Assembly (NCBI GenBank): GCA_020628095.1
Contig: JAHDFP010000005.1
Span: 62,001-126,000, forward strand
Length of the DNA stretch: 64,000 nt
DNA from: Saprospiraceae bacterium
GTDB taxonomy: Bacteria > Bacteroidota > Bacteroidia > Chitinophagales > Saprospiraceae
Direction: 5' to 3'
The notes under the pieces were generated by a model. It did no database searches. It saw only the letters and a program-made list of their open reading frames with translations, and was not told the origin of the DNA. Every line of letters starts with the position of its first letter. Position 1 is the stretch's first letter. The translations under genes and the position numbers were made by a program. Below, one piece after another: positions 33,315 through 64,000 of this stretch.

Positions 33315-34535
33315 ATGAAAGTACCTTTTTTCAAACCTCTAATAGATGATGATGTCATTGCCGAGGTGAATGACACACTTACAAGAACCACCTGGTTGAC
33401 TACAGGTCCTAAGGTTCGTTTGCTGGAGCAGGAGATAGAAAAGTTATTGGGTATAGCCAATGTGCTTTGTGTTAATTCCTGGACTTCTGGCGCCATGCTC
33501 GCACTCAAGTGGTATGGTGTAGGACCAGATGATGAGGTAATTATTCCAGCCTATACTTATAGTGCAACTGCGCTATGCGCTATGAATTTGGGTGCAAAAG
33601 TGGTGATGGTAGATGTCAAGGATGATTTTACACTTGACCCAGAAAAACTGTTGGAAAATATAACTAATAAGACCAAAGCGATTATACCCGTTGATATAGG
33701 AGGATGGCCCTGTGATTATGATGCTATAAAAAGTATTGTCCAAAGCGAAGAGGTCAAAGGCCGTTTTGTAGCTGAGAACGAAGTACAAACCAAATTAGGC
33801 AGACCTCTATTGGTATCGGATTCGGCTCATAGTATCGGTGCTCTATATAATGGCAAGCCGATAGCACATGCACCTGATATGACCGTGTTATCATTTCATT
33901 CAGTCAAGAATATTACTGCTGGAGAAGGTGGTGGGATATGCTTAAACCTACCAGCCGATTTTGATTCACAAGAATTATATCAGGAGCTTAAAGTGCTTTC
34001 TCTCAATGGTCAGACTAAGACGGCTTATGAGAAGAACAAGGTCGGTGGCTGGCGCTATGATATCATCTATCAGGGATTAAAAATTAACATGCCCGATATA
34101 TGTGCAGCCATAGCTCTTGCCCAAATAAAGAAATACAAAGAGGAGTTGTTGCCAGAGCGACTCAAAATATTTGATAGATATAACCAAAATTTATCTAAAT
34201 ATGAATGGGCCATAATGCAAGGGGTAGAGGATGGCGGTAATAGATCGTCATGCCATCTTTACCTTGTCAGGATAAAAGGAATCACTGAGGATCAAAGAGA
34301 TCAGATGATACAATATCTATCCGAAAACCAAGTAGGGGTCAATGTACACTATATTCCTATGGCCATGCTTAAGTTGTTTAAGTCAATGGGGTATAAAATC
34401 GAGGATTATCCTAAGACTTACGAATTATATGCCAATCAGATAACATTGCCTATTTATAATAATCTGACCTTGGAGCAAGTCGATCATGTATGTGTTATGT
34501 TGGACAAGGCCTATCAGAGTCTCGGAATCTCGTAA
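33315..34535 (+). CDS. DegT/DnrJ/EryC1/StrS sugar aminotransferase
   Basis: A 406-residue PLP-dependent aminotransferase of the sugar type. It starts KVPFFKPLIDDDVIAEV, has CVNSWTSGAMLALKW, the strand PVDIGGWPCDYDA, and the Schiff-base lysine in FHSVKNITAGEGGG (Lys198). Long insertions around 155-175 and NGQTKTAYEKNKVGGWRYDI are like the WcfR group that makes UDP-AATGal in Bacteroides capsules, but I cannot confirm that. It should aminate a 4-keto sugar nucleotide. It is 13 bp after the GT56-like gene and its stop abuts the SGNH gene, so it belongs with the acylation cassette as well. Confidence 0.85.
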   Translation: MKVPFFKPLIDDDVIAEVNDTLTRTTWLTTGPKVRLLEQEIEKLLGIANVLCVNSWTSGAMLALKWYGVGPDDEVIIPAYTYSATALCAMNLGAKVVMVDVKDDFTLDPEKLLENITNKTKAIIPVDIGGWPCDYDAIKSIVQSEEVKGRFVAENEVQTKLGRPLLVSDSAHSIGALYNGKPIAHAPDMTVLSFHSVKNITAGEGGGICLNLPADFDSQELYQELKVLSLNGQTKTAYEKNKVGGWRYDIIYQGLKINMPDICAAIALAQIKKYKEELLPERLKIFDRYNQNLSKYEWAIMQGVEDGGNRSSCHLYLVRIKGITEDQRDQMIQYLSENQVGVNVHYIPMAMLKLFKSMGYKIEDYPKTYELYANQITLPIYNNLTLEQVDHVCVMLDKAYQSLGIS

Positions 34536-46690: not shown

Positions 46691-47824
46691 ATGGAGCAAA
46701 AAATTCACATGGTCGATCTTATCTCTCAATATAAAGACATCAAGTCAGAAGTAGATATCGCGATCAATAAGGTCATCGAAGAAGCTAGCTTTATAAAGGG
46801 ACCTCAGGTAAAAGAGTTTGAATCTAGTTTGTCAGATTATCTTAATTGTGGTCACACCATAGCTTGTGCCAATGGAACGGATGCTCTTCAGATTGCACTT
46901 ATGGCGCTCGGATTAAAACCAGGAGATGAGGTCATTGTGCCTGCATTTACTTATGTGGCGACTGCTGAGGTGATAGCCTTATTAGGACTAAAACCTGTTA
47001 TGGTAGATGTAGAGCTGGATTCATTTAGTATCCTACTTGATGGCTTAGAAAAAGCAGTCACTACTAAAACTAAAGCAATAGTTCCAGTGCATCTGTTTGG
47101 TCAGTCATCTAATATGGAGGCCATTATGAAATTTGCTAGTACTCACAATCTTTACGTAGTAGAAGATAATGCTCAGGCCATTGGATCAGATTTTATTTTT
47201 GAATCTGGAGAAAGGTCCAAAACTGGTACAATTGGTCATATCGGATGTACATCTTTTTTTCCATCTAAAAATTTAGGCTGCTATGGTGATGGTGGTGCGA
47301 TTTTCACTAATGATGATCATCTGGCAACGCAGATAAGAATGATCGCTAATCATGGACAAAAGAAAAAGTACTATCACTCTGTCGTCGGATGTAACTCCAG
47401 ACTAGATAGTATACAGGCGGCTGTTCTAAATATTAAGCTGAAAAAGTTAGATGAGTACTGTGCGCATCGGAATAAATTAGCCGACTACTATGATGGCCAA
47501 TTGTCAGATATAGAAGAGCTAATAATTCCTTATAGATATAAGCAGTCTACTCATGTTTTTCATCAGTATACACTAAGGGTAGCTAATGGGAAACGTGATG
47601 CATTAAAAGAGCATTTGTCAGCTAATAATATACCATGTGGAATATATTATCCATTACCACTGTATAAACAAGAAGCATATAGTCATTACGTGACACAAAA
47701 TTTTAGCTTAAGCAACACTGAGCAATTATGCGAAGAAGTTATTTCTCTACCGATGCATACACACATGACTGAGGGCCAAAGGGAATATATAGTAGCTGAG
47801 GTTAGATCTTTTTTTGATGATTAG
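46691..47824 (+). CDS. wbpE: WbpE-like UDP-sugar 3-aminotransferase
   Basis: A 377-residue PLP aminotransferase that begins IHMVDLISQYKDIKSEVDIAI. It has ACANGTDALQIALMALGLKPGDEVIVPAFTYVATAEV and the Schiff-base lysine in FFPSKNLGCYGDGG (Lys193). QYTLRVANGKRDAL and GIYYPLPLYKQEAY match the WbpE family, which aminates UDP-3-keto-GlcNAcA. The next gene encodes the matching WbpB-type dehydrogenase; WbpD and WbpI types lie at 41555 and 40469. In the P. aeruginosa WbpB/WbpE pair the NAD of WbpB is recycled with 2-oxoglutarate. Confidence 0.88.
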   Translation: MEQKIHMVDLISQYKDIKSEVDIAINKVIEEASFIKGPQVKEFESSLSDYLNCGHTIACANGTDALQIALMALGLKPGDEVIVPAFTYVATAEVIALLGLKPVMVDVELDSFSILLDGLEKAVTTKTKAIVPVHLFGQSSNMEAIMKFASTHNLYVVEDNAQAIGSDFIFESGERSKTGTIGHIGCTSFFPSKNLGCYGDGGAIFTNDDHLATQIRMIANHGQKKKYYHSVVGCNSRLDSIQAAVLNIKLKKLDEYCAHRNKLADYYDGQLSDIEELIIPYRYKQSTHVFHQYTLRVANGKRDALKEHLSANNIPCGIYYPLPLYKQEAYSHYVTQNFSLSNTEQLCEEVISLPMHTHMTEGQREYIVAEVRSFFDD

Positions 47825-51220: not shown

Positions 51221-52366
51221 ATGAATAAACCCAGAATATACTTATCGTCACCACACATGTCAGGCCACGAACAAAAGTTCATACAGCAGGCCTTTGATGA
51301 AAATTGGATAGCGCCATTAGGGCCTAATGTAGATGGCCTGGAAGATGATATTGAGGCTTACAATAGTATAGATCATTGTGCTGTACTATGTTCAGGTACA
51401 GCGGCTATCCACATCGGGCTTATACTATTAGGAGTAAAACAGGAGGACGAAGTCTTGTGTTCTACCTTTACCTTTTCTGCGACGGTCAATGCTATACGAT
51501 ATTGCAATGCGGTTCCTGTATTTGTAGATTCAGAAAAGGATACGTGGAATATGTGTCCTGAGATGCTCAGGGCAGCAATAGAGGATCGAATCAAAAAGGG
51601 TAAAAAGCCAAAGGTATGTATCATTGTACATCTCTATGGAATGCCATCCAAAATGGATGAGTTAATGGCAATATGCGAGGAATACGAAATACCAGTACTG
51701 GAAGACTCGGCCGAAGCACTGGGAGCTGAATACAAAGGGCAAAAGATGGGGACTTTCGGTGAGTTAGGTATTTATTCTTTTAATGGTAATAAGATAATAT
51801 CTACTTCTGGTGGTGGCGCATTAGTATCTAAGAACCAAGAACATATAGAGCGTGCTAAATTTTTGTCCACTCAGGCAAGAGATAAAGCCCCGCATTATCA
51901 GCACTCCGTTATAGGCTATAATTATAGAATGAGCAATATCGTGGCAGGTATAGGACGTGGTCAGATGATCGTGCTGGATAAGTGGATAGAAAAAAGACGA
52001 AATATCAATAAGTGGTATAGAGAGCTATTGTCGTCTATAGACTATATCACTTTCTTAGAAGAACCGAGCGAAGACTTTTTCTCTACTTTTTGGCTGACTT
52101 GTATTTATTTTAATAAAAATGATCAGGGTGTAGATCGAGAAATGGTCAGATTAAAGTTATTGGAGCAAAATATCGAGTCAAGGCCACTATGGAAGCCGAT
52201 GCACATGCAACCTGTGTTTAAGGATTTTCCAGCTTATGTCAATGGATTTAGCGAAGACTTATTCGTTAATGGTCTATGTCTGCCAAGTGGGTCCAATATG
52301 ACGGAGGAGCACTTCGATCGTATCCAATCATCCTTACTCGGTTTATTATCACCCGTAACTGCATAA
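51221..52366 (+). CDS. pglE: PglE-like UDP-4-keto-sugar aminotransferase
   Basis: A 381-residue PLP aminotransferase. KPRIYLSSPHMSGHEQKFIQQAF and NWIAPLGPNVDGLEDDIEAY are specific to the PglE group, followed by CSGTAAIHIGLILLGVK, FVDSEKDTWNMCPE and the Schiff-base lysine in SFNGNKIISTSGGG (Lys191). It makes UDP-4-amino-4,6-dideoxy-GlcNAc from the PglF product. It may also provide the amine for the legionaminic route, which lacks its own LegC-type aminotransferase here. A 76-bp leader with a promoter-like site separates it from the next gene. Confidence 0.9.
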   Translation: MNKPRIYLSSPHMSGHEQKFIQQAFDENWIAPLGPNVDGLEDDIEAYNSIDHCAVLCSGTAAIHIGLILLGVKQEDEVLCSTFTFSATVNAIRYCNAVPVFVDSEKDTWNMCPEMLRAAIEDRIKKGKKPKVCIIVHLYGMPSKMDELMAICEEYEIPVLEDSAEALGAEYKGQKMGTFGELGIYSFNGNKIISTSGGGALVSKNQEHIERAKFLSTQARDKAPHYQHSVIGYNYRMSNIVAGIGRGQMIVLDKWIEKRRNINKWYRELLSSIDYITFLEEPSEDFFSTFWLTCIYFNKNDQGVDREMVRLKLLEQNIESRPLWKPMHMQPVFKDFPAYVNGFSEDLFVNGLCLPSGSNMTEEHFDRIQSSLLGLLSPVTA

Positions 52367-57283: not shown

Positions 57284-58477
57284 ATGAAATTTACATTATC
57301 CATTTTTATCCTATTTATAAGTTACACATTATCAGTAGGTCAGCTCAAGGTTGTTACTAATGGTGATATCTTAGTCAGTGGCACATCAGCCCCTTCGACT
57401 TCTGCATTTTTAGACGTTAATGTACATAGTACTTCTCGTAACTGTTTTCAGACTGGATCTTATGGTCTACAGTCAGCAGGTAATACTAACGGTTTCTTGA
57501 CACATAATTGCTATTGGAATTCTGCTAATGGTGGTGGTGCTGTTGTCTTAAGAGAAGCTGGAGCAGGTGCTATATCTCAATATTTTCAAGGAAACACAAT
57601 TTTCAGAACAGTACCAGCAGGTGCTGCAGGCGCTGTTGTACCTTACGTAGAGGCTATGACAGTACAGGCATCAGGTAAGTTGGTATTGGGTTATCCGTGG
57701 ACGGCTAACCTACCTAACCTTATGTCAGTGAATGGTTCTATTGGCGCATCAGCGTTCAATGTCGTTTCTGATATTAGATTAAAGAATAACATATCTAAGT
57801 TTAAGCACGGATTAGATGCTGTGATGAAGCTAAAGCCTATCACATACACTTATAACGGTGGTGCAGGGATAGAAGACAGAGAGGTGCATGTTGGATTAGC
57901 AGCACAGAACTTGCAAGAAGTGGCTCCTGAGTTAGTAAAAGAATTTGAATATCAGGATCATGAGATTATCAGTGGAATGGAAGGTATTACTAAGAAAGTG
58001 GGTAGTGCTGAGACATATTTACAGATCAAAGATAATCAGGTGAAGTACCTTCTTGTCAATGCTATACAAGAGCAGCAACTTATCATAGATGATCAAAAGG
58101 CGCAGTTAGATGCTCAGGCCGAAAAATTAGATAAATTACAAAGCCAGATAGATGCCATTATCAATGGTGATATTCAGATAGGTGAAGTTATCAGTGTACA
58201 GTTAACGCAATATGATTTTGCAGAGCTAAAAGATAACAGACCGAATCCATTCAATGGTTATACAGAGATAGATTACATTATTCCATCTGAATCAAAGAAC
58301 GCTCAGATGAATATCTATAACAATGAGGGCAGACTGATAAGATCTATTCCTATCCAACATACAGGTGCAGGAACAGTTAAGTTAGAAGCATCACAAATCC
58401 CAAGTGGTACTTATAACTACTCACTACTTGTAGATGGTAAGATGATAGAGACTAAGCAAATGTTCTTAGCAAAGTAA
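57284..58477 (+). CDS. T9SS-secreted protein with S74 (intramolecular chaperone) domain
   Basis: A 397-residue exported protein. A Sec signal peptide (about 1-19, MKFTLSIFILFISYTLSVG) is followed by a Gly/Ser/Asn-rich beta-type region (25-150), then the S74 peptidase motif SDIRLKNNISKF with the autocleavage serine Ser162, found in tail-fibre and endosialidase chaperones. VHVGLAAQNLQEVAPELV and a coiled coil (EQQLIIDDQKAQLDAQAEKL near 265-285) complete the domain. Residues 318-397 (NRPNPFNGYTEIDYIIP, GTYNYSLLVDGK) are a type A C-terminal sorting domain for the type 9 system. It has its own leader and terminator. Such CTDs are attached to A-type LPS, which links it to the locus. Confidence 0.88.
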   Translation: MKFTLSIFILFISYTLSVGQLKVVTNGDILVSGTSAPSTSAFLDVNVHSTSRNCFQTGSYGLQSAGNTNGFLTHNCYWNSANGGGAVVLREAGAGAISQYFQGNTIFRTVPAGAAGAVVPYVEAMTVQASGKLVLGYPWTANLPNLMSVNGSIGASAFNVVSDIRLKNNISKFKHGLDAVMKLKPITYTYNGGAGIEDREVHVGLAAQNLQEVAPELVKEFEYQDHEIISGMEGITKKVGSAETYLQIKDNQVKYLLVNAIQEQQLIIDDQKAQLDAQAEKLDKLQSQIDAIINGDIQIGEVISVQLTQYDFAELKDNRPNPFNGYTEIDYIIPSESKNAQMNIYNNEGRLIRSIPIQHTGAGTVKLEASQIPSGTYNYSLLVDGKMIETKQMFLAK

Positions 58478-59534: not shown

Positions 59535-60680
59535 CTACTTCTCCACAAAAGCCTTTATATGCCCTATGATATACTCCTGCTCTTCATCGGATAATTCGTA
59601 GAAGACAGGAAGTCTGACTAAGGTGTCCGCATATTGATCACAGTATGGTAGATCGTAATTGACATCATCATATCCCTTGAAGAAGTCACTGCGATGTAAA
59701 GACAGATAGTGAAAGACGCAATGAATCTTTTGAGCCCTCATATAACGTATAAACTCTGATCTACTATCTAAGTCATGGAATAAGAGATAGAACATGTGTC
59801 CGTTCTCTACTGTATAATCTTTGAGCACTGGTAGCTCAAAGATGGTTTGGTTGAGTGCGCTTAGTTCTGAGCGATACCTTTCGACTATTTTTATTCTTTT
59901 GTTTTGTATTAGCTCCAGACACTCTAGTTGCCCATAGAGATAGGCAGCATTAAGCTCTGATGCTAAGAACGAAGAACCCTTATCTACCCATCCATACTTA
60001 TCTACCTCACCACGGAAGAACGCCGCGCGGTTAGTTCCTTTCTCCCATATAATTTCTGATCGGTCGAGGTATTTCTCATTATTGACCACGAGTAGTCCAC
60101 CCTCTCCAGAGATCACATTTTTGGTTTCGTGGAAAGAGTATGCTGAAAAATCCCCAAAAGATCCTAATGGTTTCCCTTTGTAGGTGGAGTCTATTGCTTG
60201 CGCACAGTCCTCTATAAGAAAAAGATTGTATTTGGCGCATAACTCCATGATCGGGTCCATATCACAGGCTTTACCAGCATAATGGACTACCACGATGGCC
60301 TTAGTATTGGGTGTGATACTCTCTTCTATTTTGCTGGCGTCCATATTGGGATGATCCGGCTCAGAATCTACAAATACCAGTTTCGCATTTCTTAGGACGA
60401 AGGCATTAGCTGTAGAGACGAAGGTGTAACTAGGCAATATGACCTCGTCACCCTCTTTGATGTCCGCTAGTATGGCTGACATCTCTAGGGCATCCGTACA
60501 CGAGGTCGTCATAAGACACTTCTTATATCCATACCGCTCCTCAAAGAACCGATGGCACAACTTACTATAGTGACCATTGCCAGATATCTTTTTCCTGTCC
60601 ACCGCATCTTTGATATAATCCAGCTCCTTACCGACGATAAATGGTTTATTGAATGGTATGTCGAATGCCTTATCAGCCAT
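59535..60680 (-). CDS. wecE: dTDP-4-amino-4,6-dideoxygalactose transaminase, WecE/RffA-like
   Basis: A 381-residue PLP aminotransferase, last gene of the reverse operon. IPFNKPFIVGKELDYIKDAVD, TTSCTDALEMSAILADIKEGDEVILPSYTFVSTANAFVLR and the lysine in SFHETKNVISGEGG (Lys187) are specific to WecE, and EKGTNRAAFFRGEVDKYGWVDKGSS is the WecE substrate-binding block. It aminates dTDP-4-keto-6-deoxyglucose to dTDP-Fuc4N. RmlA and RmlB, which would supply that substrate, are not in the window. It overlaps the AMP ligase gene by 8 bases and should act with the GNAT gene at 63059. Confidence 0.9.
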   Translation of the reverse strand: MADKAFDIPFNKPFIVGKELDYIKDAVDRKKISGNGHYSKLCHRFFEERYGYKKCLMTTSCTDALEMSAILADIKEGDEVILPSYTFVSTANAFVLRNAKLVFVDSEPDHPNMDASKIEESITPNTKAIVVVHYAGKACDMDPIMELCAKYNLFLIEDCAQAIDSTYKGKPLGSFGDFSAYSFHETKNVISGEGGLLVVNNEKYLDRSEIIWEKGTNRAAFFRGEVDKYGWVDKGSSFLASELNAAYLYGQLECLELIQNKRIKIVERYRSELSALNQTIFELPVLKDYTVENGHMFYLLFHDLDSRSEFIRYMRAQKIHCVFHYLSLHRSDFFKGYDDVNYDLPYCDQYADTLVRLPVFYELSDEEQEYIIGHIKAFVEK

Positions 60681-62031
60681 CTATTGATTTTCGTACTTTT
60701 TTGAATCTATTAGAATAGTTAATGCCTTCCTTCACATTGATCTTTGTGGGTACCTTATATCGCTCCAGTCGTTCTCTGCAATAATTTCTGAGCGCTCTTA
60801 TCGTTCCTTTCTTATTCTCCGATGATTTTATAACCACATCGGCTACCACAGTCTGACCAGTAATCAGGTGCGATGCACCATAGACAGAGGCATCTAATAC
60901 TTCTGGATTAGTCATCAGTACTGTTTCTACCTCTATAGGCAATAGCTTCTCACCACCGACATTGATAACCTCACTATTCCGCCCTATGATACGGATGTAG
61001 CCGTCATCGGTTTCTTCTACCAGATCACCTGTCTTAAACCATCCGTCATCTGTAAATCTCTGCATAGAAGCATTAAGATAACCCATAATTTGAGTTTTGC
61101 TTCTTAGCCAGAGTTCGCTATCAATGATTTTGTACTCCAGATTAGGGTCATCTATTTTTAAGAAAGTACTGGATGAGGATTTGCTTGATATATTAGCGAT
61201 TCCTGTTTCGCTCGTGCCAAAAGTCTGTAATAACTTCACTTTGGGGAAAGACTCTTTGAGCCTTAGTAAGAGGCTTTCAGACATTTGCTCTGTACCGTAA
61301 GTAATCATCCGCAGTGAGCTTAGGTCATACTTATCTAGTGCACCACTCATAAGAATAAGATTAAGAAAAGTAGGGGAGGCAGGTAGTATTTGCACCTTAT
61401 TTTTCTCTATAAGCTCACAGATATAGTCTGGGTCTCGGTGTGTCGGTAAGATCAGTGTCGCCGTCATCGCCAGACAATTAAACAAAGTATTAAGTCCACC
61501 GATATGATCAAACATCAGAAAGACCAACAACCTCATAGACCTAATCTTCTTACTCTCAAAACTTGATAATAGATTATCGAAGTTATGGATCATGGCCTTG
61601 GGCTTCCCTGTGCTACCACTGCTGAATAAGATCAGTCCTGCATGATTACCCTTGACAAGATTTCTTATTAGCTCATGCTGATCTTCATTACTATTTTCTT
61701 CTTCCTTAATGACGAGTTCACCATCAGAAAGACATTCTATGAGGAGGTCATTATTTAGTTCGGCTTTCTTTTCTTCGAGATTAACGGCACTTTCTTTAGT
61801 GACTGGAGCGATGATGCACTTTTGCTTAATGAGCGCAATTAGTAAGGAGATAGAAAAAAAACTGTAATCAGAGTATAAGATCACCGTCTTGTTCTGACAA
61901 TCTATAGACGATAGCTGTTCTGTATATTTATCAATTTGCTTACTCAGAGCCGCATAATGGTATTCTTCCTGATCGTGGACCAGAGCCACTTTGTCAGGGT
62001 TGTCGTCGAATCTTTGAAGTAACCATTCCAT
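60673..62031 (-). CDS. Adenylate-forming acyl ligase (ANL superfamily)
   Basis: A 452-residue enzyme, shorter than the usual 500-550. The P-loop is FSSGSTGKPKAMIH near 134-147, then the A5 motif TFGTSETG, WFKTGDL (A7), and GRNSEVINVGGEKLLPIEVE (A8 hinge). The C-terminal catalytic lysine lies near the end in SNRFKKVRK. It activates a carboxylic acid with ATP and passes it to CoA or to a carrier protein. The ACP at 62756 and reductase at 62036 stand just upstream in the same operon, so loading of the ACP with a short hydroxy or keto acid is a plausible inference. Confidence 0.85.
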   Translation of the reverse strand: MEWLLQRFDDNPDKVALVHDQEEYHYAALSKQIDKYTEQLSSIDCQNKTVILYSDYSFFSISLLIALIKQKCIIAPVTKESAVNLEEKKAELNNDLLIECLSDGELVIKEEENSNEDQHELIRNLVKGNHAGLILFSSGSTGKPKAMIHNFDNLLSSFESKKIRSMRLLVFLMFDHIGGLNTLFNCLAMTATLILPTHRDPDYICELIEKNKVQILPASPTFLNLILMSGALDKYDLSSLRMITYGTEQMSESLLLRLKESFPKVKLLQTFGTSETGIANISSKSSSSTFLKIDDPNLEYKIIDSELWLRSKTQIMGYLNASMQRFTDDGWFKTGDLVEETDDGYIRIIGRNSEVINVGGEKLLPIEVETVLMTNPEVLDASVYGASHLITGQTVVADVVIKSSENKKGTIRALRNYCRERLERYKVPTKINVKEGINYSNRFKKVRKSIDG

Positions 62032-62035
62032 AGCC

Positions 62036-62740
62036 TTACATTACGCCACCCAGATAGATGGTCTGTCCAGTAATAAACTGACTTTCTGGTTTTATAAAAA
62101 AGTCAATCACATTAGTCACATCATCGAATGTTCCAAATCTCTTTAGACTTTGATGACCTATGAGTTCATCTATTTTGTCTTTTGGTACATTTTTTATCAG
62201 GTCGGTTTCTATAGGCGTCGGACCTACACAATTGACTGTTATACCAAACTCTCCTAACTCTTTAGCTGATATTCTTGTCAGACTTTCTACGGCTGCCTTG
62301 CTGGAAGCGTAAAGGGCCTCTCCATCCAGATTAAGTGGAACAGCTACTGTAGAAAAATTAATGATCCGTCCCGCTTTCTTTTTTATCATCACCTTTGCCA
62401 CTTCTCTGCTTGTAATAAAAGACCCATAATAATTCGTCTCGAAAATAGATTTCATAGCCGAGTATGGCGAAAGCAAGAGATGGTTCATAGAGGCCATTCC
62501 TGCATTATTAATGAGTACGTCTATATGTCCATGCGCTTTTTTTATAGAGCGCACCATCCTGACAATTTCCTTTTCTTCTTTCAGGTCCACCTGATGATGG
62601 CTATACTTAGAATGCTCAAGATCGACAGGCCTGCGACTACAGCCTATGACAATATGTCCTTGACTGAGATAATGCTCTGTCAGGTGCTTACCGATGCCTT
62701 TTCGGGTACCTGTGATCAGTATGATTAGCTGATTGTCCAT
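62036..62740 (-). CDS. Short-chain dehydrogenase/reductase, FabG-like
   Basis: A 234-residue classical SDR. The cofactor loop is ITGTRKGIGKHL at about 8-19, NNAG is at about 77-80, the catalytic serine lies in NFSTVAVP and the YxxxK pair is YASSKAAVE at about 143-151. The order matches 3-oxoacyl-ACP reductases and related sugar or acyl reductases. It is 4 bp from the AMP ligase gene and 15 bp after the ACP gene on the reverse strand. Its position suggests reduction of a 3-keto group on an ACP-bound acyl chain, as proposed for VioR-type enzymes. Confidence 0.88.
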   Translation of the reverse strand: MDNQLIILITGTRKGIGKHLTEHYLSQGHIVIGCSRRPVDLEHSKYSHHQVDLKEEKEIVRMVRSIKKAHGHIDVLINNAGMASMNHLLLSPYSAMKSIFETNYYGSFITSREVAKVMIKKKAGRIINFSTVAVPLNLDGEALYASSKAAVESLTRISAKELGEFGITVNCVGPTPIETDLIKNVPKDKIDELIGHQSLKRFGTFDDVTNVIDFFIKPESQFITGQTIYLGGVM

Positions 62741-62755
62741 CAGTTAGAGACTAGC

Positions 62756-63055
62756 TTATTGGTCTTGAGCATTTATAAGTTCCTGTATATAATTAGAGAT
62801 GCTGCGCACTGTCCTGAAAGGGGATATCCTTTGACTCATAGCCCTCTCTGTGGCAATGGTCACCTGCTTACCAAAATTGTCCTCTATCTCCATCTCCAGA
62901 TCTGCTATCAAGGTCACCAGATTAATACTATCTAATCCGCCGTTAGGACCATACAACACGGAATCTTTATCAGGGTTATGATACATATCAGATTCTATGT
63001 CTTCACCCAGTAGTTTGACACATTCTATGACGACCTTTTCTATTTCCTCTATCAT
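62756..63055 (-). CDS. Acyl carrier protein (second, reverse strand)
   Basis: A 99-residue carrier protein, longer than the usual 75-80. The phosphopantetheine serine is Ser43 in GGLDSINLVTLIADLEMEI, with IEEIEKVVIECVKLLGEDIES before it and a C-terminal helix (RTVRSISNYIQELI). The extra length is a loop of about 15 residues near 58-73. It is 3 bp after the GNAT acyltransferase gene and 15 bp before the reductase gene, so it probably carries the acyl group that the GNAT protein transfers to an amino sugar. Confidence 0.88.
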   Translation of the reverse strand: MIEEIEKVVIECVKLLGEDIESDMYHNPDKDSVLYGPNGGLDSINLVTLIADLEMEIEDNFGKQVTIATERAMSQRISPFRTVRSISNYIQELINAQDQ

Positions 63056-63058
63056 CGT

Positions 63059-63814
63059 TTACTTGATGTATTTATGAAAACCGAAACTTGAGTTAGAAAT
63101 ATTGAATCCATAAGACAAGTACAAATTGATGGTCGCAATATTGGCTGCCGATACTTTGACATCTACAACATTACGCACGCCTTGACTCACCAGATAATTC
63201 AATAACGAGCTCCAAAAATAAGGAGAAACCAATCCAAAATCTCTACGACTACCTCCTAAAATCAGTTTGGCTTTTGACCCCATTATTTCTAAGGCCATAA
63301 AGCTAATTAATTGATTATCAGATTCGTACACTATTATCTCTTTGCCTTGCTCTACAAGATCGTCTATCCAGTGCCAATGTCTTTTGTGATTGATCTCTGG
63401 TGAGACCATGATATCTTCGTAAAATCTACCGTAATCAAACGCCGTTACTGCGATATCTTTTATAGCCTCTATATCCGATGGTGTATAACTTCTTATATCA
63501 AATAGCTTGTCCGGAAATTTAAGTTTGTGCAGTCTTCTCTTGTTAAGTGTCAGCGTTGTCTCCACATATCGGAATCCTCTGTCTTGGATATGATGTCTGA
63601 GCATTCTTTCCTGAGAATCTATGCGAGTATAGACCAGCTCGTAAGATTCCGAAGAGATTGCCGATTCCAATTGATCGAGCAAGGAAGCCACGTCTTCTTC
63701 ACTAATATTAGGACTAAAGTGGATCTCTCCCGTTTTCAGACCAAAGGCACGGGCATCCCAGGGAGTGGGCTTGAGTATCGCATAATTGCTCTTGTCGATA
63801 CTAATCTTCGTCAT
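63059..63814 (-). CDS. GNAT acyltransferase, WecD-like
   Basis: A 251-residue protein. The opening NYAILKPTPWDARAFGLKTG matches WecD, dTDP-fucosamine acetyltransferase (WDxxxFG near the N-terminus), and the C-terminal GNAT half has FDYGRFYEDI, LISFMALEIMG, KLILGGSRRDFG and SAANIATINLYLSYGF. WecD makes dTDP-Fuc4NAc from dTDP-Fuc4N and acetyl-CoA. With an ACP, ligase and reductase next to it, the acyl donor may instead be an acyl-ACP. Its 5' end overlaps the partial GT2 gene by 14 bases. Confidence 0.78.
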   Translation of the reverse strand: MTKISIDKSNYAILKPTPWDARAFGLKTGEIHFSPNISEEDVASLLDQLESAISSESYELVYTRIDSQERMLRHHIQDRGFRYVETTLTLNKRRLHKLKFPDKLFDIRSYTPSDIEAIKDIAVTAFDYGRFYEDIMVSPEINHKRHWHWIDDLVEQGKEIIVYESDNQLISFMALEIMGSKAKLILGGSRRDFGLVSPYFWSSLLNYLVSQGVRNVVDVKVSAANIATINLYLSYGFNISNSSFGFHKYIK

Positions 63815-64000
63815 CGAATCCTATCTTTTTCTCTACTACAAACAAGGGTCTATTCTTGACAGTATCAAAAATACTACTGATGTAGATACCCACTATACCC
63901 AATGATATAATAATGATCCCACTCAAAAACCAAAGTGAAGATATAATCGTCGTAAAACCAGAAACACTCGTACCCATAATCGCATACCGTATAAGGTAAA
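63801..64000 (-). CDS. Family 2 polyprenyl-phosphate glycosyltransferase, C-terminal end (partial)
   Basis: About 65 residues of a reverse-strand gene that enters from the right edge and stops with TAG at 63801-63803. Two hydrophobic segments (GTSVSGFTTIISSLWFLSG and IIIISLGIVGIYISSIF) are followed by DTVKNRPLFVVEKKIGFDDED, the ending of DPM1/ArnC/GtrB-like GT2 enzymes (Y...D..K.RP.FVV). These bind undecaprenyl phosphate and add a sugar to the lipid carrier. The catalytic domain is outside the window. It is the first gene of the visible reverse operon, overlapping the GNAT gene by 14 bases. Confidence 0.8.
   Translation of the reverse strand, partial: YLIRYAIMGTSVSGFTTIISSLWFLSGIIIISLGIVGIYISSIFDTVKNRPLFVVEKKIGFDDED

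Follow-up and report, generated by a model that had tools for sequence, protein, structure and literature searches.

The DNA considered here is a 64,000-nucleotide window from Saprospiraceae bacterium (assembly GCA_020628095.1, contig JAHDFP010000005.1, positions 62,001-126,000 of the forward strand), and all coordinates follow the numbering of that window. It contains a single minus-strand operon that encodes a WecE aminotransferase, a 99-residue acyl carrier protein (ACP), an AMP-forming acid:ACP ligase of the ANL family, a FabG-like short-chain dehydrogenase/reductase (SDR), a WecD-like acyltransferase of the GNAT family, and a family 2 glycosyltransferase (GT2). We propose, with a probability of roughly 0.6, that the operon makes dTDP-4-amino-4,6-dideoxy-D-galactose (dTDP-Fuc4N), the 4-amino group of which bears a short and probably hydroxylated acyl chain that is delivered by the private ACP. 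Within this proposal, there is good support for a 4-amino sugar that receives its acyl group from a private source.

In the proposed pathway, the ANL ligase would adenylate a short acid and load it onto the private ACP, and the SDR would reduce either the ACP-bound acyl chain or its free precursor to the hydroxy form. The GNAT would then transfer the acyl group from ACP, rather than from coenzyme A (CoA), to the WecE product Fuc4N, a step that is supported by the gene context and by an altered CoA loop. The GT2, which resembles ArnC and PgfS, would load the acylated sugar onto undecaprenyl phosphate, and a membrane glycosyltransferase, for which a neighboring YfhO-family protein is a candidate, may transfer the sugar outside the cytoplasmic membrane. 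One or two methyltransferases may also O-methylate the sugar, in the manner of VioM.

Operon structure and the predicted 4-amino sugar

The gene identities and tight minus-strand packing described in an earlier, sequence-only reading of this DNA were borne out. The intergenic distances all fall between -14 and +15 bp, with WecE/ANL at -8, ANL/SDR at 4, SDR/ACP at 15, ACP/GNAT at 3, and GNAT/GT2 at -14 bp. The operon is longer than was stated, as it reaches past the edge of the window, with the start of the GT2 gene outside and two methyltransferase genes ahead of it. It is not a chance grouping, since the same gene sets recur in unrelated genomes.

WecE (59535-60680, minus strand, 381 residues) is encoded by the final gene of the operon. 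It exceeds the cut-offs of two NCBIfam models, NF008687 (546.7 bits against 375) and TIGR02379 (496.5 against 434.85), its best match in the PDB is 4piw (E 1.1e-115), and the SFHETKN motif is present in all seven proteins that were compared. The substrate of WecE is available because an RmlB, or dTDP-glucose dehydratase, is encoded elsewhere in the genome; this is the one RmlB over cut-off (C10:137130-138116, on another contig, 467.4 bits versus 365.1). These matches support the dTDP-Fuc4N chemistry that had been claimed, in which WecE is predicted to convert dTDP-4-keto-6-deoxyglucose to dTDP-Fuc4N.

Recurrence of the gene set

The sequence-only reading held the gene set to be without known precedent and proposed a gene-neighborhood search, which was run. 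The claim of novelty did not survive it, as WecE-GNAT-cassette sets, where the cassette denotes the ACP, SDR, and ANL genes, were found at three further loci, L029, L043, and, with distant enzymes, L131; an ACP, a reductase, and an AMP-synthetase are also in print beside pseH of Aeromonas (PMC7874193). The full set of WecE, GT2, GNAT, ACP, SDR, and ANL recurs in L029 and L043, on one Bacteroidales and one Myxococcales contig. The order is GT2-ACP-SDR-ANL-GNAT-(small EamA-type)-(488-residue membrane protein)-WecE in L029, the Bacteroidales locus, and WecE-GT2-GNAT-ACP-SDR-ANL in L043. The SDR of L029 is split into two overlapping frames (L029:9304-10001), perhaps by an assembly error.

The window GNAT is matched in seven of 395 sampled genomes of its phylum, the window genome included. 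Its two closest relatives are found in L131, with the order WecE (460 bits)-GNAT-ACP-ANL-SDR next to flagellin genes, and in L132, with GNAT-SDR-ANL-ACP; the ANL, SDR, and ACP of both are far from those of the window (ANL identity 27.8% and 25.3%, respectively). A cassette-free version occurs in L133, as GT2-GNAT-GtrA-methyltransferase-WecE-781-residue membrane protein, and in L134, where the contig ends after the GtrA-like gene. L135 and L136 have a different DegT-family aminotransferase and no cassette.

A census was also made around WecE in all 58 of the 395 genomes that encode it, and because contig ends cut several of the stretches, the counts are lower bounds; some stretches coincide in part with loci from the preceding searches. 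An ACP together with an ANL or a ketoacyl-ACP synthase III (KAS III) lies near WecE in at least six of the 58 (the window, L215, L216, L218, L225, and L229), and an ArnC-like GT2 of at least 236 bits lies beside it in at least 14. In L217 (6384-8174), a WecD-like GNAT is fused to WecE in a protein of 596 residues, the gene for which is flanked by those of an ArnC-like GT2 and of a membrane protein of the PMT_2 type. Another locus, L170 (7715-12460), reads ACP-GNAT-KAS III-SDR-KAS III-WecE and resembles wfpC-G of Flavobacterium psychrophilum; by analogy, this set may attach 3,5-dihydroxyhexanoyl to Fuc4N.

The ACP-SDR-ANL cassette

To define the spread of the cassette, 84,980 species genomes were searched with six ANL proteins, which confirmed at least 549 relatives; the best 80 loci were kept, and profiles were built from the window proteins plus five to seven relatives each. 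The ACP and SDR genes are close to ANL in 76 of the 80 loci, and the strict ACP-SDR-ANL order on one strand is found in 66, with other spacing in ten. The window locus itself has all three families on the same strand in this order. Four loci lack the full set: L082 and L083 have no ACP, and L093 and L103 have neither partner, L103 being an ANL fragment only. As read from record titles, the 80 loci span about twelve phyla, namely Bacteroidota, Pseudomonadota, Campylobacterota, Myxococcota, Verrucomicrobiota, Spirochaetota, Acidobacteriota, Bacillota, Bdellovibrionota, Actinomycetota, Chloroflexota, and Desulfobacterota. Within the phylum of the window the cassette is patchy, the ACP being found in seven of the 395 sampled genomes and one of 60 relatives (both counts include the window genome), and it is probably a mobile trait. 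Vibrio cassette DNA gave no match when searched in E. coli genomes.

The neighbors of the cassette vary, and include WecE, genes for pseudaminic acid, those of the PglD type, and genes for natural products. One or more of seven sugar markers are present in 35 of the 80 loci: DegT in 27, NeuB in 14, CMP-nonulosonate synthetase in 12, PseB, PseG, and PseH in 11 each, and PglD in 10. PseH directly precedes the ACP in nine loci, KAS III is found in 15, and a true WecE (at least 250 bits to the window protein) is found in three (L029, L035, and L043). Eleven of the 80 are marker-free loci that adjoin a halogenase-containing cluster or a cytochrome P450, and 34 have neither. Pfam assignments covered 45 of the 52 immediate upstream neighbors and 38 of the 54 downstream ones; a GNAT model matches nine of the former and a hexapeptide model five of the latter. 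The link between the cassette and N-acyltransferases is thus real, and far from universal. On a Rhizobium plasmid (L012:7890-13543), the cassette adjoins a gene annotated as a CmlS-like FADH2 halogenase, and members of this halogenase neighbor cluster occur in six of the 80 loci.

A broader idea, to which we give somewhat less than an even chance, is that ACP-SDR-ANL is a general acyl-donor cassette. A single hydroxyacyl-ACP would then serve acyltransferases of unrelated kinds (GNATs, whether WecD-like, PseH-like, or other, as well as PglD-type enzymes) and also natural-product enzymes, and a GNAT recruited to the cassette would turn from acyl-CoA to acyl-ACP and give up its CoA loop. In that case, the cassette would predict which nonulosonic acids and 4-amino sugars bear non-acetyl amides.

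Among the cassette proteins, the ANL and the SDR are ordinary members of their superfamilies. The ANL ligase (60673-62031, minus strand, 452 residues, PF00501 and PF13193) is 41-56% identical to 42 relatives, with D175-H176 invariant in all 69 aligned sequences, and its structural model has a pLDDT of 92.9. The model does not reveal the acid, as its best PDB matches (Z 33-35) score alike across enzymes with many different substrates. The ANL gave no match in phage records. The SDR (62036-62740, minus strand, 234 residues) is closest to the FabG model TIGR01830, at 160.9 bits and under the cut-off of 297.75; its Y144 and K148 are invariant in 41 of 41 sequences, and the position of the catalytic serine, 131, which is Thr131 in the window, holds Thr in 34 and Ser in seven. 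A profile of the SDR found no PDB match at E<=1e-60. The ACP (62756-63055, minus strand, 99 residues) carries a GGLDS motif, with GLDS around Ser43, the predicted phosphopantetheine site. PF00550 at E 0.078 is its sole family match, with none at E<=0.001 and no curated model over cut-off, and a profile search matched two weak chains only; S43, S74, S78, P79, and F80 are nonetheless invariant in 57 of 57 aligned relatives.

The acyltransferase and its donor

The GNAT (63059-63814, minus strand, 251 residues) is the predicted sugar N-acyltransferase that would use acyl-ACP. Its sole curated match is the WecD model NF008212, at 44.7 bits, far under the cut-off of 219. A structural model (pLDDT 88.6) has WecD 2fs5 as its best PDB match (Z 21.0, root-mean-square deviation 3.0, 218 aligned residues; next Z 17.0), which supports a WecD fold.

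The GNAT consensus for the loop that binds the CoA pyrophosphate is [QR]xxGx[GA], and this strict motif is absent from the window GNAT. Among the six cassette-linked WecD-like GNATs that were read, the motif is present in L029 and lacking in the window, L043, L131, L132, and L215; among cassette-free WecD-like GNATs it is present in nine of 13 (L133-L136, L237, L239, L243, L245, and L246). None of 11 cassette-linked PseH proteins has it, L036 among them retaining G-L-G, and Campylobacter jejuni PseH (4xpk) retains K-G-V-G at the aligned place. In a third GNAT group, all four cassette-linked members are without the motif at the loop. The presumed control L140, also without the loop, proved to be located in an ACP-GNAT-KAS III-SDR-KAS III-WecE set. 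PseH matches from Bacteroidota make weak controls, since the majority belong to other proteins (PseH scores over cut-off in 2 of 395 genomes); nine of the 30 loci were aligned. L138/L168 was omitted from the comparison as ambiguous, since it keeps the loop and has an ACP and an FkbH-like gene nearby; L168 (7819-10715) is a Pse-type cluster in which the ACP and FkbH-like protein lie near a PseH that keeps the CoA loop.

Fisher values for the loop comparison, 6e-7 or, with near duplicates merged, 3e-5, are indicative only, as they rest on scoring by eye and on related sequences and were computed before the weaker cases were added. The trend fits, and hints at, a switch of donor to acyl-ACP, with small numbers, related sequences, and exceptions on both sides. 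The earlier suggestion that a dedicated acyl-ACP feeds the GNAT finds support in a conserved cassette that swaps acyltransferases and in the strict motif being missing in the window and in most cassette-linked GNATs.

Known systems and the identity of the acyl group

In enterobacterial common antigen synthesis, WecD takes acetyl-CoA as its donor and is not known to work with an ACP, ANL, or SDR. The window operon is alike in that its WecE is over the family cut-off and its GNAT models on WecD, and differs in that the GNAT is far below the WecD family cut-off. It partly resembles the Arn (ArnC/ArnT) and Gtr (GtrA/GtrB) systems through a GT2 that matches ArnC and PgfS below their cut-offs; those systems differ in the sugar and acyl involved, and the window locus has no recognized flippase gene. 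In Vibrio cholerae O1, rfbK and rfbL have ACP and ligase roles. V. cholerae O1 likewise acylates the nitrogen of a 4-amino-4,6-dideoxyhexose with a short hydroxy acid, tetronate, and its normal O antigen requires wbeL (471 residues, with a putative ATP-binding domain), which is predicted to act in tetronate synthesis; the sugar there is perosamine, and the accessory enzymes are different (PMC3441752).

Comparable logic in the modified viosamine of Pseudomonas syringae, which the sequence-only reading had also invoked, is confirmed, with a KAS III in place of an ANL. The island vioA/M/T/S/B/R/acp makes dTDP-N-(3-hydroxybutyryl)-2-O-methyl viosamine, an N-hydroxyacyl 4-amino-4,6-dideoxyhexose on dTDP that is backed by mutants and mass spectrometry, and a vioR reductase mutant loses the modified viosamine (PMC3927599). 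Shared with the window are a DegT aminotransferase, a methyltransferase, a private ACP, a FabG-like reductase, an N-acyltransferase, and a glycosyltransferase. The island differs in having KAS III (VioS) and no ANL, in making Qui4N rather than Fuc4N, and in its VioT of 1173 residues, which is not ArnC-like (PMC3927599). The wfpC-wfpG set of F. psychrophilum also includes a private ACP, a reductase, and a PglD-type acyltransferase, predicted to place 3,5-dihydroxyhexanoyl on a 4-amino sugar; these O-polysaccharide genes differ in using two KAS enzymes, with no ANL named, and UDP-Qui2NAc4N (PMC6519341).

By analogy with the P. syringae island, a 3-hydroxyacyl group is plausible. No KAS is found among the open reading frames (ORFs) of the window operon, and because an ANL replaces KAS III, the acid must come ready-made. 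A narrower version of the pathway, in which acetoacetate, once loaded by the ANL, is reduced by the SDR to give exactly 3-hydroxybutyryl, appears unlikely. The SDR is nearest to FabG, KAS III, reductase, and ACP yield that very group in P. syringae (PMC3927599), and the ANL of the window occupies the position of VioS; however, free acetoacetate does not suggest itself as a substrate, polyketide synthase (PKS)-type and halogenase-type neighbors are served by the cassette as well, and a pseudaminic acid (Pse) mass from Aeromonas fits another acyl. The 3-hydroxybutyryl that the sequence-only reading gave as an example is thus a candidate only, there being no KAS in the cassette and the linked Aeromonas mass pointing elsewhere.

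In Aeromonas, Group II flagellar islands are described in which ACP, 3-oxoacyl-ACP reductase, and AMP-dependent synthetase genes follow pseH, with luxE and luxC also present, and a Pse derivative of 376.14 Da is reported in A. piscicola AH-3, which has these genes after its pseH (PMC7874193). The islands are likened to the window by annotation and differ in their sugar, pseudaminic acid, as well as in luxE and luxC; the authors of that study propose a liposugar component and leave orf1-3 without an assigned step (PMC7874193). By calculation, Pse+acetyl+C4H6O3 has a mass of 376.148 and Pse+acetyl+3-hydroxybutyryl one of 360.153, so the observed mass fits C4H6O3 and not 3-hydroxybutyryl, although it has other solutions.

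Another candidate acyl is 4-hydroxybutyryl or dihydroxybutyryl, with a semialdehyde or keto group being reduced by the SDR either ahead of loading by the ANL or afterward, and this too we consider doubtful. In its favor are the A. piscicola mass and, on the thiomarinol plasmid pTML1 (L264:7872-12684), a distant ANL-SDR-ACP set (ANL identity 36%) that immediately precedes a PKS gene. The octanoate chain of thiomarinol reportedly starts from 4-hydroxybutyrate; that compound is not mentioned in the main text of the pTML1 plasmid paper (PMC3069032). Against it, the pTML1 ACP does not belong to the ACP family of the cassette, the pTML1 SDR has 30% identity, and the Aeromonas islands also carry luxE and luxC.

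The novelty lies in the coupling of an ANL route with enzymes of the WecE/WecD kind, in how widely the cassette is spread, and in a possible sign of donor switching in the GNAT; the logic itself has published relatives. A literature search, with most subscription journals outside it, found no paper assigning the ACP-SDR-ANL cassette to sugar N-acylation. Non-acetyl amide-linked acyl groups shape O-antigens, capsules, and flagellar glycans and are rarely readable from sequence. With the cassette and an acyltransferase sequence sign as markers, genomes could be searched for sugars of this kind, and masses of flagellin pseudaminic acid that lack an explanation become directly testable. The enzymes also provide a means of producing acyl-ACP donors for the synthesis of modified sugars.

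Probable route of the finished sugar

The GT2 gene (PF00535) runs on the minus strand from 63801 to 64745, beyond the end of the window at 64000, and corresponds to L009 7801-8745. Its product is probably of the polyprenyl-phosphate sugar transferase type and matches PgfS (206.9 bits, cut-off 500) and ArnC PRK10714 (182.2, cut-off 529) over almost the whole length. Because of this likeness, the sugar is probably transferred to undecaprenyl phosphate. Membrane proteins in related WecE loci, namely GtrA in L133, an EamA-type protein in L029, and PMT_2 in L217, fit such a transfer. In the window genome, the divergent neighbor of the operon belongs to the YfhO family (40.6 bits versus 28.5) and is a candidate GT-C membrane transferase.

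The product could instead be a soluble donor for the repeat unit of an ordinary polysaccharide made by the plus-strand genes, since the 59 kb that precede the operon form a large plus-strand cluster with three further DegT aminotransferases. The operon has, however, its own ArnC/PgfS-like GT2, of a kind that accompanies WecE in 14 of the 58 census loci, and we regard the soluble route as improbable.

Weighing the proposed pathway

Several observations weigh against the proposed acylation and transfer of Fuc4N. No biochemistry was found for any cassette protein, and 45 of the 80 cassette loci carry none of the seven sugar markers. The GT2 scores under the cut-offs of both ArnC and PgfS, no flippase is found among the ORFs of at least 70 residues beside the operon, the sole GtrA match in the genome is on contig C26, away from the locus, and among the cassette loci the window and L020 are the only ones with a YfhO-like protein close by. 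As to the CoA loop, the window GNAT has RDFGLV, one residue off the consensus and shifted in the alignment, and residues 191-200 of the modeled loop have a mean pLDDT of 69, among the less sure parts. The L029 GNAT retains a QNIGLG loop despite its cassette, and cassette-free L231, L254, L255, and the L217 fusion are each one residue short of the strict motif. Because the L215 GNAT is likewise one residue off, as is the window's with its shift, the WecD-like GNATs alone are weak evidence.

A rival explanation is that the GNAT is a plain acetyl-CoA-dependent WecD making Fuc4NAc, with ACP, SDR, and ANL serving another product and co-transcribed by accident. WecE, GT2, and GNAT operons without the cassette do exist (L133, L237, and others), and the marker-free cassette loci are in keeping with a separate product. 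The cassette nevertheless forms part of the operon, flanked by the GNAT and WecE genes and with overlaps, the gene set recurs in L029, in L043, and, built from distant enzymes, in L131, and the window GNAT has no strict CoA-loop motif; we judge this explanation quite unlikely, and acylation from the private ACP is retained as the preferred reading.

Neighboring genes

Beyond the GT2, the contig encodes a methyltransferase of 276 residues, a second methyltransferase frame of 137 residues, and the divergent YfhO-family membrane protein. The second frame (L009:9608-10021, minus strand; 65608-66021 in window numbering) continues without a stop past its first listed start and across a probable S-adenosylmethionine-binding motif farther upstream, and an alternative start codon, a truncation, and a sequence error are candidate explanations. 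Four DegT-family aminotransferases are encoded within the 64-kb window, at 33315-34535, 46691-47824, 51221-52366, and 59535-60680. Finally, a secreted-type protein encoded at 57284-58477 combines a Peptidase_S74 (endosialidase chaperone) domain with a type IX secretion tail.

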